Assembly (NCBI RefSeq): GCF_019823105.1
Contig: NZ_CP081959.1
Location: 186,001 to 250,000, forward strand
Reading direction: 5' to 3'
DNA: 64,000 bases
Source of the DNA: Halobaculum magnesiiphilum
GTDB taxonomy: Archaea > Halobacteriota > Halobacteria > Halobacteriales > Haloferacaceae
In this document: positions 2,386-8,375 of the stretch, piece by piece
Layout of the letters: every line of letters begins with the position of its first letter
How positions within the stretch are numbered: the first letter of the stretch is position 1
Notes under the pieces: generated by a model
The model's input: only the letters and a program-made list of their open reading frames with translations
What the model was told of the DNA's origin: nothing
Databases searched by the model: none
Position numbers and translations under genes: made by a program

Positions 2386-2539
2386 TCGCCAGTTCACGAG
2401 CGCCGAAGTCGCTCAGACGGACGACGATTGGCTCCAGGAGCACCGCGAGGAGATCGAGCGCGAGGCGAACGCAGACCACGGTGCTGCGTGGGTGTTCAAG
2501 CGGATGATCCAGTCGCTGAACGCCGGTCGCGATGAGTGA
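2375..2539 (+). CDS. Small hypothetical protein, 54 aa
   Basis: ATG 2375 lies inside the end of the preceding ORF, so the two overlap by 11 bp. The product (starts MGISRQFTSAEVAQ) is highly acidic with a helical centre (WLQEHREEIEREANADHG) and a basic C-terminal patch (FKRMIQSL). No domain is recognised. As the last of a run of small genes it is followed by a short hairpin near 2589-2609. The next gene starts at 2887, and between 2610 and 2850 I see only non-coding DNA. Confidence 0.45.
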   Translation: MGISRQFTSAEVAQTDDDWLQEHREEIEREANADHGAAWVFKRMIQSLNAGRDE

Positions 2540-2588
2540 TTGAATCGGCCATCCAGAGTAGCCAAGGAGAGACACCCCCGGCCGCTCG

Positions 2589-2609
2589 GCGGATCCCTAC
2601 GTGATCCGC
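2589..2609. terminator. Short hairpin, possible terminator of the small-ORF operon
   Basis: Perfect 7-bp inverted repeat GCGGATC / GATCCGC separated by 7 bases and followed by TTT. It lies 50 bp after the last small ORF. Archaeal termination depends mainly on T-runs, which are weak here, so the role is uncertain; a protein-binding site is the alternative. Confidence 0.25.
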
Positions 2610-2886
2610 TTTGTGTACCTCGCCGTCAGTAGCGCCCCACGACGGGTTCGTCGAAACGGCGATCGCACGGCGAGAAGAGAACTGAATGTTCCTCTCGCAC
2701 GTTCTCCATCTCGCCGGTGTTCAAAATAGAAATATCCGGCTCTGTTGAAATCCCATTAGTTCGATACTTTCCTGCTGAAACAGCCGTTCGGACGATTATG
2801 CGTATCTCACGTCGATCGACCCCTAACTCGTGAATTCCTTGACTAACGGTATATTTATTACAAATTCTTGTCGTGAACTTGATCTA

Positions 2887-3642
2887 ATGCCGGTCACTCC
2901 ACTCGGCGTCGCCACAGGCATCCTGATCACCGCTGCTGGCGGTGCAATCGTGGAACTCGTCAGGCGACGATTCAATCGTCAACAAGACGCCGAGGAATGG
3001 TACAGAGGTGCTCTCGGACTCATATCCCGCACTGAACGGATTGGTCGCCTGACCACAGAGTATCAAGAACAAACCAACACCGAAACTCTCCGATCGGAAC
3101 TTGACCCCCTCTCTGAAGACCTTAGAGAACACGCCGCTGATGCACCTTCCAGCATTCCGCAAGAAGCACGTGACCGGCTCAAATACCTCTCTGACATAAC
3201 CACCGGTCTAATCATCATCTCCGAAAAGGGAGAGGAAATGACCGCCACGGAGATGCTTTCGAATCTCCAAGGGTTCGTTCAAAAGCGTGCTGAAGATATA
3301 GACGGAGAACTTGCAGATGTTGAACAAGTCAACGAGGTAATCTCTCCTATTGACAAAGATGCTATCGCCGATGACCTTCCCGCAGAGGACGTAGACTTCG
3401 ACGAGGATGAGCTTGAACACCTGCTTGAACAGGTAAGCGATGAAACGCTCCAGACGCAGCAAATTCAGTCAATCGACGAGGTACTCAACTTCCCGTTCGC
3501 CGAGGCTAACGAACTCTTCGAAAATATGGCTATCGTAGACGAAACGATGGACGACGCGATGCGAGAGTACGTCCGTCTCTGGTTAATTGAAGTCACTGAG
3601 GAGATCTACCGCGAGATGGAAGCCCGTCGAGATCGCATCTAA
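2887..3642 (+). CDS. Hypothetical protein with N-terminal membrane segment and long acidic helical domain
   Basis: ATG 2887 is preferred over the longer GTG frame from 2830 because a TATA-like TATATTTATTA sits about 30-37 bp upstream, which fits leaderless transcription. The 251-residue product begins with one hydrophobic segment (about residues 5-22, PLGVATGILITAAGGAIVEL) followed by a basic stop-transfer cluster (RRRFNRQQ). The rest looks like soluble, strongly acidic helices. It would be anchored with its bulk in the cytoplasm. No family is recognised. It converges on the HEPN-like gene at 3866. Confidence 0.6.
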   Translation: MPVTPLGVATGILITAAGGAIVELVRRRFNRQQDAEEWYRGALGLISRTERIGRLTTEYQEQTNTETLRSELDPLSEDLREHAADAPSSIPQEARDRLKYLSDITTGLIIISEKGEEMTATEMLSNLQGFVQKRAEDIDGELADVEQVNEVISPIDKDAIADDLPAEDVDFDEDELEHLLEQVSDETLQTQQIQSIDEVLNFPFAEANELFENMAIVDETMDDAMREYVRLWLIEVTEEIYREMEARRDRI

Positions 3643-3727
3643 GTCGACCTCTGCCGGTTCCGCTGAAATCTCAGTGATGACTTCACCCTCTCTTCATAAC
3701 ACGAACCTTGGGAGTGTCCAATTAACG

Positions 3728-3747
3728 ACTAGCTTGGTTGAGCTAGT
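3728..3747. terminator. Hairpin between convergent genes
   Basis: Perfect 7-bp inverted repeat ACTAGCT / AGCTAGT with a 6-base loop. It lies in the 223-bp gap between two convergent genes, where a bidirectional termination signal is plausible. The rest of 3643-3865 has no supported gene. Confidence 0.3.
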
Positions 3748-3865
3748 AGTTCGTCGACTTCGGCCGGTACTTCGAGCCGGAGCAAACCTGCTTGTCGGCG
3801 TTCGCGGATGACGGGGGCGGCCGGGTTCGTAGTCCACCGCTCCGCTTTCTATGGCTGGACCGCGG

Positions 3866-6208
3866 TCACTCTTCGGACACGGTGGAAGGTGATGTGTGGT
3901 CGGTCGCTAGTCGGTCTGCCCGGTCGGGGCCGATACCGGGAACCGCTTGGAATGCGTCTTGGTCTGCGTCCAAGAACGCCTGTTCGCTGTCGAAGTGGTC
4001 AGCGACGCGCCACGCAAGCGTTTCGCCGATACCGGTGACGCTGGTGGCCTGTTCAAAGATGTTCAGACACTCGTCGGCGGGGACGATCGTTTCTCCGTCG
4101 ATCTCTCCTGTCGTGATGTCGTCCCGTTCCTCAAGCCGCCGGAGCGCGGTCCGGGTCGTGCTTTCGTCTATGCCGCGGACTTTCGCGTGTTCGATGATAG
4201 TGTCCCGGGTGGGTGCATCAGCAGAAGCGGCGGTCTGGTCGTCGATTACGTCCGTGATGGTGTGGAGGATCAGGTCGTTCTGGTCGAGCCAGGTGTAGTC
4301 GATGCTGTCTGGGATGTTAGGGTAGTCGTCGCGCAGTTGGTCGATTTCGTCTTGAATTTCGTCCCGGGTCAGTCCGGTCCCGTCGATGAGATAACGGTGG
4401 ATGCGACCACGGTAGACGAAGAGTTCGGTATGGCCATCGTGGCCGTTTTCACGGATGGTGACAAGGGTGTGGCCGTCGGTGGAGGTGCCGTAGCCGATGA
4501 TCTGCTTGTTCAGGTCTGTGAACAGGGAGAGGTCAGTTTCCTGGTCGTACTGTGTGGACGGGGAGAGGGTCTGCTGAGGAATACCGAAGTAGTTCAGATA
4601 GTCGGCGCTATTGAGTGTGACGAGGCATTTCAGAGTGTCGAACAGGGTTAGGACCGCGTTCAGGTAGTTCGCATTCCGGTACCGAAGCTGGCCGTGGGAA
4701 AGCCGGTTTCGGAGGTTCATTCCTTCCCGGCTCGTATATCGGTACCGGAGGTAGATGGCGTAGTGGCGTCCAAACAGGTCGCGTCCGTCGATGAACAGTC
4801 CGCCAAGGAGCTGTTGCTGAGTTCCTTCGTCGATGATTGTGTATGCTGGTCGTCCGACAGACTGGAGGGTGTCGACGATTGTTGCTTCGAGATGCGGGAC
4901 GAAGAGGAACAGCGCTGGGCGGTGGTTGTCTTCGTGGAGTTCGAGGAGTGCGTCGGTGAGGAATGCTTCTGTATCGGGGGAAAGCGTGTCTCCGATCGTG
5001 AATATATGGAAGATGTGGGATAACGTGAGGTGGCCTTCCTTGATCAGACGGTAAAGTGCGTTTCCCAGCGATGACATCTTCCCTGCTGCATAGTGGCTGT
5101 AATTGTTCGGGATAGATTCAGTGTCCGAGGGGTCAACGGAGAGTGTATGTGCTTCCGGGGAGATGATCCGGCGGCTGACGAGCTGGGAGATGACGAACTC
5201 CTCCGTTGACAAGCGAATCTTATTCGGGTCGGGGATGAGGCTACTGGAGAGTGCCAGGCAGTAGAGTGCGTACGAGCCGGATCCGGAGGCTTGCTTCACA
5301 TGCTTGAACCAGTCGACGTAGACCTGGGTGTTGTTCTCCATTTCTTCGGCGACAGCTTGCTGGAGGCTTTCGCCCTCGATCCCGTCTAAGTCCAGATCGT
5401 CCGGATTGAGTTCGTGTAGTTCAGTTTCGGTCCCGGTCCGGCGGGCTTGGAGGGCTTCCTGTTTCCAGTCGCGCTTCTGTTCGTCGCTTAGATATTCGGC
5501 ACACTCGGCAACGCCACTCTGGAGGATGTCAGCTTTCTGCAACAGGCTCTCTCGCTCAACGAGTCCGGCTTCTCTTCGGTAAGAGTCGACGAGTGCGGTT
5601 TCCACGTCCGATGTGTCACGGCCGCATGCTCGTTTGAACTCGTGCAACAGCCGAAGGTATTCTCTGAGCAGGTTGAAGCGGTTATCTGTACGGTAGGCGT
5701 CTGCGTTCGCCTTGATGAGGGTTATCCATCGGTCTTTGTGGGGGTCCGGTATATCGTCGATGTTGTCGATTGCGGCTTCGATTATTGAGGTCGTGAAGCT
5801 GGGGGTGTCGTCTGGGTGGCAGTTTTGTAGGAACTCGAGTACTCCTTCAAGTTCGTTTGTTACGTCATGGCCCTGTAATCCTGCTTTGAGGCGGACTCGC
5901 CGATATTGGTATTGGGAAGCGATGTTCACCCATTCGCGGTCCTCTGCGTCGGCAATGGCGTCCTTGAACTGGTCGAGTGCGTCACGGGCTGATTGGAATG
6001 TGTCGTCGGTGTACCAGTCCTCAAGATTGTCCACGAGTTCGGGTAGCAGGTATTCACCGTCCATCTCGTCGAGGTGGAGCCGGGTCTCGTCGCCGAGCTC
6101 TTCCTCGCCTTCCACTGATTGGAAAAGTCGGTCCAACTGCAGAGCAAAGTGGAAATCTTCCCCGGGATCCGCTCGTGCCCTGTCGAGCGCATCGAGTAAC
6201 CGGACCAT
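3866..6208 (-). CDS. HEPN-like (DUF4209-like) protein with C-terminal winged helix and helix-hairpin-helix repeats
   Basis: This is a 780-residue soluble protein. Residues ~1-430 are helical without a recognised fold. Around 480-535 it contains RNRLSHG (Arg500 to His505), an R-x4-H arrangement typical of HEPN nucleases and of DUF4209-type proteins, followed by a helical YRNANYLNAVL stretch. Residues ~658-712 look like a winged helix (RDTIIEHAKVRGIDESTT, RTALRRLEE). Residues ~720-775 carry two helix-hairpin-helix units (TGIGETLAWRV, VPGIGPDRADRL), which usually bind DNA non-specifically. HEPN domains are common RNases in defence systems, so a defence role is possible; this is inference. The gene stands alone, downstream of no obvious partner. 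Confidence 0.65.
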   Translation of the reverse strand: MVRLLDALDRARADPGEDFHFALQLDRLFQSVEGEEELGDETRLHLDEMDGEYLLPELVDNLEDWYTDDTFQSARDALDQFKDAIADAEDREWVNIASQYQYRRVRLKAGLQGHDVTNELEGVLEFLQNCHPDDTPSFTTSIIEAAIDNIDDIPDPHKDRWITLIKANADAYRTDNRFNLLREYLRLLHEFKRACGRDTSDVETALVDSYRREAGLVERESLLQKADILQSGVAECAEYLSDEQKRDWKQEALQARRTGTETELHELNPDDLDLDGIEGESLQQAVAEEMENNTQVYVDWFKHVKQASGSGSYALYCLALSSSLIPDPNKIRLSTEEFVISQLVSRRIISPEAHTLSVDPSDTESIPNNYSHYAAGKMSSLGNALYRLIKEGHLTLSHIFHIFTIGDTLSPDTEAFLTDALLELHEDNHRPALFLFVPHLEATIVDTLQSVGRPAYTIIDEGTQQQLLGGLFIDGRDLFGRHYAIYLRYRYTSREGMNLRNRLSHGQLRYRNANYLNAVLTLFDTLKCLVTLNSADYLNYFGIPQQTLSPSTQYDQETDLSLFTDLNKQIIGYGTSTDGHTLVTIRENGHDGHTELFVYRGRIHRYLIDGTGLTRDEIQDEIDQLRDDYPNIPDSIDYTWLDQNDLILHTITDVIDDQTAASADAPTRDTIIEHAKVRGIDESTTRTALRRLEERDDITTGEIDGETIVPADECLNIFEQATSVTGIGETLAWRVADHFDSEQAFLDADQDAFQAVPGIGPDRADRLATDHTSPSTVSEE

Positions 6209-6429
6209 ACGGAATACCAGGTCTTAGATTATGTAAATGACAGGCACGTACTACTCTTGAACTGGCGCTCTACTCAATCTGTCTGAAACCCGCTTCCAGC
6301 TCCGTAATGAGTTCCTCGTCCCCGCCGACAGTGAGGTGATGTTTCTTCCTTGCACCTGTTGGAGGGCTTGTTGAAGTTCTTAATAATTACGACAATTCCT
6401 CGGATGAATATCGGCGGAGAGTTGTTCTC

Positions 6430-7344
6430 TCAGCAACCGAACTTTTCTCTAAGAGGTGAGAAGATCTCCTGGGAGTGTTCCCAGTAGATGGATAACACGG
6501 TCGGGACAAAGAACCCGAAAACTAAGCCGATATAATGCGAGAATATATTCACTGCATTACCGTCCTGTACAATCTGTTTCGGGAACAAGAGTGTTGGAGA
6601 AGATAGGAACAGCGCGAAGGCAACTATCACTAACATAACATGTTCTCTGTTTGAATTAAGTTCGGAAACTGATCCCCGTACCTGATCAAACCCGATACTG
6701 TGAATTTCGTAAAATAATAGGAGAGCCGATACCACTAGAATGCCCATTGTGATAAGCAAATTAGTATAAATCCACGCAGTGAACCCAAGTGCCATAAGGA
6801 ACACCGATGTCCCGGTTGTTCCCCCTGCATCGTTCAAAACACGATATCGTACAAATGTAATCGAGGCCACAAGGAGAAGTCCCATAAAGGCCGCCCCAAT
6901 ACCTGAAAAGCCTGCTCCTGAACCTTGGCCAATTACTGCGATATTCAATAAGGCTATCACTGGTGGAAGACAAATCAGGAACGAGACAAAAGAGTACCAG
7001 AACAGCTTACGCCGATCTGCGCTTATAAACAAGAGGTATGTCGGAACGATGTATAGAATATACGCTACCAAGTTGTTGCTGAAGTGGTCGAACCCTCTGT
7101 GTACGTAGGAGGCGGACCAGATATTGAATAGAGAGGGATTTCCGTATTCCAGTACCAGTGATTGTTGAATTGATGCTGGTAGTAAATACGCCGCCGTAAT
7201 TATGCTCGGGACTGCCAGTATCAACGCGAAGTCGATAATGTGAACCCGCTCCAACACTTCTTTCCAGTAGTCATTTTTCCGTTCTTGACAGGTTCTGACA
7301 GGGGACTTCATATTCTCGGATACGAACGATATCCGATTTAACAC
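6430..7344 (-). CDS. Rhomboid-family intramembrane serine protease
   Basis: The 304-residue polytopic protein (start GTG 7344; ATG 7311 would remove 11 residues and is equally plausible) has about seven membrane segments and all rhomboid landmarks. These are His82/His87 and Asn90-91 in VHRGFDHFSNN, the catalytic serine in GAGFSGIGAA (Ser147), and the partner His270 in NIFSHYIGL. Rhomboids cut single-pass membrane proteins within or near the bilayer. The gene diverges from a membrane-anchored winged-helix regulator over a short region with repeated half-sites, suggesting co-regulation and possibly a protease-substrate relation. Downstream (6209-6429) I see no complete gene; a short frame ending near 6270 (…ITELEAGFRQIE) may be a remnant. 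Confidence 0.85.
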   Translation of the reverse strand: MLNRISFVSENMKSPVRTCQERKNDYWKEVLERVHIIDFALILAVPSIITAAYLLPASIQQSLVLEYGNPSLFNIWSASYVHRGFDHFSNNLVAYILYIVPTYLLFISADRRKLFWYSFVSFLICLPPVIALLNIAVIGQGSGAGFSGIGAAFMGLLLVASITFVRYRVLNDAGGTTGTSVFLMALGFTAWIYTNLLITMGILVVSALLLFYEIHSIGFDQVRGSVSELNSNREHVMLVIVAFALFLSSPTLLFPKQIVQDGNAVNIFSHYIGLVFGFFVPTVLSIYWEHSQEIFSPLREKFGC

Positions 7345-7360
7345 TTCGAATATGGTACAT

Positions 7361-7435
7361 GTGAATCAGCGGTATTATGGTGAGACACGTGATTCAACTA
7401 GCTGAATTACGTGCTGCACGCACTGTGAATCACGT
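7361..7435. promoter_or_regulatory. Divergent promoter with palindromic operator and extra half-sites
   Basis: Between the rhomboid and regulator genes there is an imperfect palindrome at 7386-7413: CACGTGATTCA, 6 bases, TGAATTACGTG (10 of 11 arm positions pair). Further copies of the half-site are at 7362-7368 (TGAATCA) and 7426-7435 (TGAATCACGT), the last touching the ATG of the regulator. Three or more spaced half-sites in a short divergent promoter are typical of an operator bound cooperatively by a dimeric regulator. The obvious candidate is the winged-helix protein encoded next door. Confidence 0.55.
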
Positions 7436-7969
7436 ATGTCATCTGAAAATAGGTTCACTCCACCCGGGAAAGTACAACCTGGGGACGTTTATGAGGTGTT
7501 CTCCAGTTTAGGTGAATCCGTACTTACCACGTCCGAGATAGCCGAGCAAATTGACTGGGCATCTCGATCTACAGTTCTACGCAAACTCAATGATATGGAG
7601 AAATCCGACCAGCTTCAAAATAAAAAAGCTGGAAACAAGGAGAACGCGGGGGTAGTTTGGTATCTGCCAGATGAAATTGAAGATGTTCCACAGCCAACTC
7701 CCGATCTGATCAGGATCGTTTACCGTCACCCTTGGTTTTCAATATTGACGGGTGGTCTCCTCTTCGCTGGACTCGGCTTCGCTCTCTTTATGCCTAGTTA
7801 TTTTGGTGAGGGCCTTTACCTCGGCCTGTTTCCTCGGGAACCGCTGGTACTGGTTAGCATCGGGTTGTATGTATTCGGTATCCTTGTAGCGAGTGTCGGG
7901 GGTGCGCTAGTTATTTGGGAAACAGTTGTGACTCTTGTTCAAAACAATCTAGATAAGGGGGTTCTGTAA
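7436..7969 (+). CDS. Membrane-anchored winged-helix regulator (wHTH + two TM segments)
   Basis: The 177-residue product has an N-terminal winged helix (~14-80). The segment VLTTSEIAEQIDWASRSTVLR is the likely recognition region and LNDMEKSDQLQNKK the following helix. Two hydrophobic segments follow (~97-118, with HPWFSILTGGLLFAG, and ~128-160). It would sit in the cytoplasmic membrane with its DNA-binding domain inside the cell. ATG 7436 directly follows a half-site matching the divergent palindrome, so auto-regulation is likely. Next to a rhomboid protease gene, regulated release from the membrane is an attractive inference. No exact family name is known to me. Confidence 0.7.
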   Translation: MSSENRFTPPGKVQPGDVYEVFSSLGESVLTTSEIAEQIDWASRSTVLRKLNDMEKSDQLQNKKAGNKENAGVVWYLPDEIEDVPQPTPDLIRIVYRHPWFSILTGGLLFAGLGFALFMPSYFGEGLYLGLFPREPLVLVSIGLYVFGILVASVGGALVIWETVVTLVQNNLDKGVL

Positions 7970-8027
7970 CAATTGTATCCCAACGTCTCATCATGGACCT
8001 GGGAATCTGAGCTAACTCGGCTATTGA

Positions 8028-8375
8028 GACGTCTTCTGGGCACCCGATCCCTACAACTCGGGCGGCAACCCTCGCCCGTGGCTTGTTCATACGGCAGACG
8101 ACATCCCCTACAGCGGCGAAGAGTACATCTGTGCCGGGCTGACGTTGAGCGACCTGCCTGACAATCTCGAAGTGAGAGATACTGACTGGGCGAGAGAGGA
8201 ACCCGAAGGGACCTCGTACTGCTCTCCGTGGGTGCTCGCGACTGTAAAACATGATGACGTTCAGAATCTGCAGAGGGAGTTGACAGAGGACTTCACAGAG
8301 CGGGTCACGATGCTCAGTTCCAAGTATGTGATGGGCGATCTCGATGGATTCAACCACCCTCGTCGGTCGGTGTAG
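8028..8375 (+). pseudogene. 5'-degraded PemK/MazF-like toxin remnant
   Basis: An open frame from 8028 reads VFWAPDPYNSGGNPRPWLV, then EEYICAGLTLSDLPDNLEV and SYCSPWVLATVKHDD. This resembles haloarchaeal PemK/MazF-like growth-inhibitor toxins through nearly the whole domain. An in-frame TGA at 8025 immediately precedes it, and there is no ATG, GTG or TTG before TTG 8145, so the start region has been lost. No antitoxin is found upstream; the preceding 58 bp are non-coding. Translation from 8145 would give only 76 residues lacking the N-terminal strand. I interpret it as a dead toxin gene. Confidence 0.6.

Follow-up and report, generated by a model that had tools for sequence, protein, structure and literature searches.

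Membrane proteases control membrane-bound transcription factors in site-2 protease systems and in the degradation of TcpP by Tsp and YaeL, the rhomboid AarA of Providencia stuartii has as its substrate TatA, a subunit of the Tat translocase, and bacterial transmembrane transcription regulators (TTRs) are often encoded next to a membrane partner. No natural substrates are known for archaeal rhomboids, and few archaeal transmembrane transcription regulators have been characterised. TTRs are a described class (Demey et al. 2023, PMC10269533), and the archaeal regulator ArnR contains an N-terminal helix-turn-helix (HTH) domain and two C-terminal transmembrane (TM) helices (PMC6396743). Two rhomboids are known from Haloferax volcanii, Rho1 (HVO_1474) and Rho2 (HVO_0727) (PMC11985538, PMC4343526). 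Rhomboids are not mentioned in the ArnR paper or in the TTR survey, we found no report of a paired regulator for Rho1 or Rho2, and none of the open-access papers searched described a membrane-anchored regulator paired with a rhomboid. Haloarchaeal rhomboids and TTRs are already known, and what is new, as far as that literature shows, is their pairing.

We analysed such a pair in a stretch of 64,000 nucleotides (the window), part of a 271.5-kb contig; the whole genome measures 3.73 Mb. The contig fits a plasmid, as an integrase and an orc1/cdc6 gene are found nearby. The divergent layout that had been described in the earlier note, with a rhomboid gene on the minus strand and a gene for a two-TM (2TM) winged-helix protein on the plus strand, is real, and the locus contains the following features:

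6342 to 8028, no strand: stretch 91% identical to Natrinema gari, covering both genes and little else; the flanking genes differ
6430 to 7311, minus strand: gene for a rhomboid-family intramembrane serine protease (open reading frame, motifs, homologue alignment)
7312 to 7435, no strand: shared divergent promoter region of 124 bp (sequence comparison)
7336 to 7341, minus strand: TATA-like TTAAAT inside CCGATTTAACAC, candidate core promoter (sequence and archaeal promoter layout)
7362 to 7371, plus strand: partial half-site TGAATCAGCG on the rhomboid side (sequence comparison)
7386 to 7413, no strand: palindrome CACGTGATTCA-ACTAGC-TGAATTACGTG, presumed operator, 10 of 11 positions pairing
7426 to 7435, plus strand: extra half-site TGAATCACGT, an exact match, abutting the regulator ATG at 7436
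7436 to 7969, plus strand: gene for a winged-helix regulator with two C-terminal TM segments (open reading frame, hydropathy, profile relatives)

The regulator resembles TTRs and ArnR in its layout for one-component control from the membrane, with C-terminal TM helices and a putative N-terminal HTH domain that is predicted to be cytosolic. It differs from ArnR and ArnR1, which are crenarchaeal and contain a HAMP and a sensor domain, in being haloarchaeal, paired with a rhomboid, and only 177 aa long; Pfam detected neither domain in it, and its length leaves no room for them. Like Rho1 and Rho2, which span the membrane at least six times, the window rhomboid is haloarchaeal and has a Ser/His dyad, and hydropathy predicts a similar number of TM segments for it, but Rho1 and Rho2 are chromosomal, and Rho2 has an AN1 zinc finger that the window rhomboid lacks. 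Two further rhomboid relatives (27-30% identical) are encoded on the chromosome of the same genome. The likeness to AarA and TatA is that a rhomboid is tied to a signalling pathway, although AarA acts on a Tat translocase subunit rather than on a transcription factor encoded beside it. The model proposed in the earlier note was regulated intramembrane proteolysis of a membrane-bound transcription factor; site-2 protease systems, however, act on differently oriented helices, and cleavage in the window pair is hypothetical.

By its motifs, the minus-strand protein is a rhomboid-family protease with putative proteolytic activity. All of the catalytic motifs are present: HRGFDHFSNN (HxxxxHxxxN), in addition to GAGFSGIGAA (GxSG) and SHYIGL (as SHYIGLVFG), from which a complete rhomboid had already been called. 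Alignment of 25 homologues showed that H71, H76, S136, G137, H259, and G262 (numbered from the ATG at 7311) are invariant and N80 is nearly so, and hydropathy analysis indicated about seven hydrophobic segments. The protein has no match to Pfam PF01694, which 7 of the 25 aligned homologues match (best, 1.5e-6), and when the rhomboid profile was run against PDB sequences, it hit no rhomboid and gave only chance matches. AlphaFold2 predictions from two-sequence alignments gave pLDDT values of 39 for the rhomboid and 50 for the other protein, and the models were not used. A start at GTG 7344 was rejected: N. gari carries a 1-bp indel (an insertion) between the homologues of 7311 and 7344, and in Haloplanus rubicundus a stop codon closes the frame immediately before the homologous ATG. 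Because of this indel and this stop, the start is placed at ATG 7311, giving a protein of 293 aa, and the intergenic gap is therefore 124 bp rather than the 91 bp given in the earlier note.

The regulator has a winged-helix-like N terminus followed by hydrophobic segments at residues 101-119 and 137-155, in agreement with its earlier description. HVO_A0261_N and HTH_20 match it, both below the Pfam cut-offs; the winged-helix-like pattern is kept in its relatives, those found by profile show the same domain layout, and both TM segments are kept in N. gari and Haloplanus. Comparison with N. gari gave dN/dS values of 0.16 for the regulator and 0.31 for the rhomboid, a sign of purifying selection on both genes. 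From the domain architecture, the topology is predicted to be N-in/C-in with a cytosolic winged helix. Since the winged helix must be cytosolic, TM helix 1 would run in-to-out, and only helix 2 would have the N-out orientation typical of rhomboid substrates. No relatives turned up when viral contigs were scanned with the two proteins and the regulator alignment, and a phage collection contained no relative of the rhomboid.

We then compared the shared promoter. The palindrome reported at 7386-7413 and the half-site reported to abut the regulator ATG were both recovered. Only two exact copies of TGAATCACGT occur in the 64 kb, at 7387-7396 (minus strand) and 7426-7435 (plus strand), with a one-mismatch copy at 7403-7412; elsewhere in the window there are four copies with at most one mismatch. 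A regulon search across the genome returned no second copy of the palindrome with fewer than three mismatches, as expected of a local autoregulator. The palindrome alone is marginal by shuffling (p about 0.03), and by sequence comparison its strength lies in its conserved position and the extra half-sites. Haloplanus has CGTGATTCA-N6-TGAGTCACG at the same position, with 8 of 9 core positions pairing, so that the dyad is not absent from homologous promoters, although its right arm is partly decayed in N. gari. The half-site abutting the ATG reads TGAATCACCT in N. gari and TGAAGCACGT in Haloplanus, and the partial half-site on the rhomboid side reads TGCATCAACG in Haloplanus. The gap is 125 bp in both relatives, and CCGATTTAACAC, the 12-bp block around TTAAAT, is identical in all three sequences. 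From TTAAAT to the rhomboid ATG downstream of it is a distance of 25-30 nt, which by analogy would suit the TATA box of a leaderless archaeal transcript of the rhomboid gene. A perfect 7-bp inverted repeat, TCGGATA-N7-TATCCGA (7316-7336), between the rhomboid ATG and the TATA-like box is kept in N. gari and not in Haloplanus.

The divergent pair, with the same gap arrangement, was found in three genera. N. gari JCM 14663 contains exactly the 6342-8028 stretch within different flanks, and this 1.69-kb stretch has moved as a block. Plasmid pCBA1113-01 of Haloplanus rubicundus carries the pair at 67% DNA identity among other flanking genes, with 70% identity for the regulator and 52% for the rhomboid. 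The five next-closest rhomboids (42-47%), from plasmids of Halorientalis marina, Halomicrobium urmianum, and Salinigranum rubrum and from genomes G170 and G389, have no 2TM winged-helix neighbour. Haloplanus and Salinigranum cluster together in the rhomboid tree, within the clade of the window rhomboid, and in the regulator tree the three paired regulators form a fully supported clade; the simplest history from these trees is an old pair with subsequent losses. In relatives without the regulator (L065, L066, and L077), the rhomboid gene is divergent from that of a 745-aa protein with a DUF2254-like 4TM N terminus (L065:645-2882 and L066:3490-5727), an alternative conserved partner.

With a profile of 2TM winged-helix proteins, four further, separately formed pairs with rhomboids were identified (two divergent, one operon, and one convergent):

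L080 (genome G219): regulator at 3828-4412 and rhomboid at 2983-3831, same strand, operon with a 4-nt overlap
L093 (genome G333): divergent rhomboid/regulator pair
L143 (genome G278): convergent rhomboid/regulator pair, 16 bp apart
L171 (genome G375): divergent rhomboid/regulator pair

The search for the pair in other haloarchaeal genomes that had been suggested in the earlier note thus yielded three genera and four independent pairs. GFSG and HxxxxHxxxN are kept in all four rhomboids; those of L080 and L093 match PF01694 at 4e-7, and that of L171 matches it below the Pfam cut-off. The regulators of L093 and L171 are sisters (support, 0.956), their rhomboids are distant and not sisters, and the dyad TTGGTRAC-N12-GTCAMCAA occupies the same place in both gaps; the L093 gap also contains a perfect 9-bp palindrome (p 0.005). 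The Poisson probability of at least four rhomboid neighbours among 93 regulator loci is about 6e-5 at a generous chance expectation of 0.2, itself an estimate from rhomboid density, and pairing by chance therefore appears unlikely. Few rhomboids are paired in this way: of 89 sampled rhomboid loci, 2 have a 2TM winged-helix neighbour. The gene directly downstream of the L080 operon (L080:580-2691, minus strand) encodes a protein of 703 aa that combines TRAM-like repeats with an HNH domain (type IV restriction-like) at its C terminus.

We also surveyed the 93 loci for neighbours of the wider 2TM winged-helix family, using heuristic gene calls on loci that are not fully independent. At about 80% of them (75 of 93), an adjacent gene encodes a protein with two or more TM segments. 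Such proteins are encoded by 87 of 183 adjacent genes (48%) versus 57 of 347 other genes (16%; Fisher p 8e-14, inflated by related loci). The partners include DUF4870 proteins, a ~170-aa 4TM protein, small 2TM proteins of 60-75 aa, TraB/ChaN-like proteins, and rhomboids, and most of the regulator genes sit next to membrane proteins other than rhomboids. The window pair is probably one version of a widespread haloarchaeal layout, a 2TM regulator beside a lineage-variable membrane protein, and the membrane-neighbour pattern hints that one-component systems with membrane partners form a class not yet described. Throughout L178-L226, a widespread haloarchaeal tandem was observed in which the regulator is followed by a DUF4870 membrane protein, in one or two repeats (for example, L178:1625-2461 and 2516-3169); this tandem possibly represents an undescribed one-component system. 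In L070, L071, and L075 (genomes G313, G030, and G242), the regulator is divergent from a membrane protein with a weak match to TraB/ChaN (Tiki superfamily), and in L172-L174, L176, L177, L179, L198, L161, and L163 it is divergent from the conserved ~170-aa 4TM protein, which has no confident Pfam match.

Since the pairing recurs in unrelated haloarchaea, the rhomboid and the regulator probably work as a unit. The reading that we favour, with some confidence, is that of an autoregulating transmembrane transcription regulator controlling its own gene and the divergent rhomboid gene through the shared promoter. The regulator would act as a one-component protein, with the winged helix inside the cell and two helices in the membrane, and would bind the dyad and half-sites in the 124-bp promoter, thereby placing both genes under membrane-linked control in response to a presumed signal. 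Control would probably be by repression because the sites sit where the core promoter of the regulator gene should be, and the rhomboid would be the co-regulated membrane partner, putatively in physical contact with the regulator. Autoregulation is favoured by the clustering of half-sites in this gap and by the single genomic copy of the palindrome; against it stand a winged helix below the Pfam cut-offs and a palindrome that is marginal alone and decayed in N. gari, and the rarity of pairing among rhomboids counts against a functional module. The proposal in the earlier note that the regulator controls both genes is thus plausible, given that the genes are neighbours elsewhere and that a dyad lies in the shared promoter.

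Its further proposal, that the regulator is released by its neighbour, found no support. Rhomboid cleavage normally takes place close to the outer face, in segments that are N-out (PMC2941825), and cutting helix 2 there could not free the DNA-binding domain; with the predicted topology, its release is disfavoured. The regulator could still be cleaved by the rhomboid, either in its outer loop or where helix 2 begins at the outer face, and protease activity would then set the expression of both genes by destabilising, destroying, or, less likely, releasing the regulator. We regard this as unlikely. Pairing in five lineages and three gene orders would fit it, as would the sister regulators of L093 and L171, whose non-sister rhomboids look as if rhomboid pairing had been re-selected, but any cut at the outer face would leave the winged helix joined to helix 1, and a regulator is missing beside the five nearest rhomboids. 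The three regulator relatives divergent from a TraB/ChaN-like protein also point towards proteolysis, as that family includes proteases, but the DUF4870, 4TM, and small 2TM partners of most relatives are not known proteases. Bacterial rhomboids can cut multi-pass segments such as LacY TM2 (PMC2941825), the outer loop of the regulator could reach the rhomboid active site, and cleavage that destroys or modulates the regulator is possible. An archaeal module in which the rhomboid directly gates the activity or stability of the membrane-anchored transcription factor encoded divergently from it, and this factor in turn controls both genes from one shared operator, is doubtful. If such a module exists, the rhomboid-gated pair would be one member of a family of 2TM winged-helix regulators that swap partners and sense the state of whichever membrane protein is their neighbour.

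It is improbable that the rhomboid has another role, in surface-protein processing (like that of Haloferax Rho1 and Rho2) or in plasmid or defence functions with the neighbouring DUF4209 gene, and is merely tuned by the regulator. H. volcanii rho mutants have surface phenotypes (PMC11985538), the window DUF4209 protein matches the candidate defence family PDC-S39, and a 540-aa homologue (25% identity to it) lies in the same place downstream of the L093 rhomboid; the N. gari and Haloplanus pairs, however, lack the DUF4209 gene, its remaining relatives are without rhomboids, and no defence or surface genes are conserved alongside the pair. This gene was accordingly rejected as an obligate third member. 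Coincidental neighbours carried jointly by plasmid recombination are very improbable: rhomboids are mostly unpaired, plasmids or small contigs carry the pair in several cases, and the 1.69-kb stretch was transferred as one block, but chance would hardly yield another four independent pairs in a survey of 93 regulator loci or keep the promoter conserved at 67% overall identity. With autoregulation of both genes as the preferred reading, the compact pair in five independent arrangements is a concrete candidate for a rhomboid substrate or partner, with a readily testable operator.

Minor observations were made in the surroundings of the pair. The DUF4209 protein (780 aa, 3866-6208, minus strand) contains an RNxxxHG motif, which we take to be HEPN-like, and a C-terminal HHH domain. 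Just 3' of the regulator gene, a short acidic 76-aa open reading frame (8145-8375, plus strand) may be what is left of a gene where the shared cassette ends. Outside the gene pair, an isolated 81-bp stretch at 3686-3766 of the window is 93% identical to L063:557-637 on the N. gari contig.
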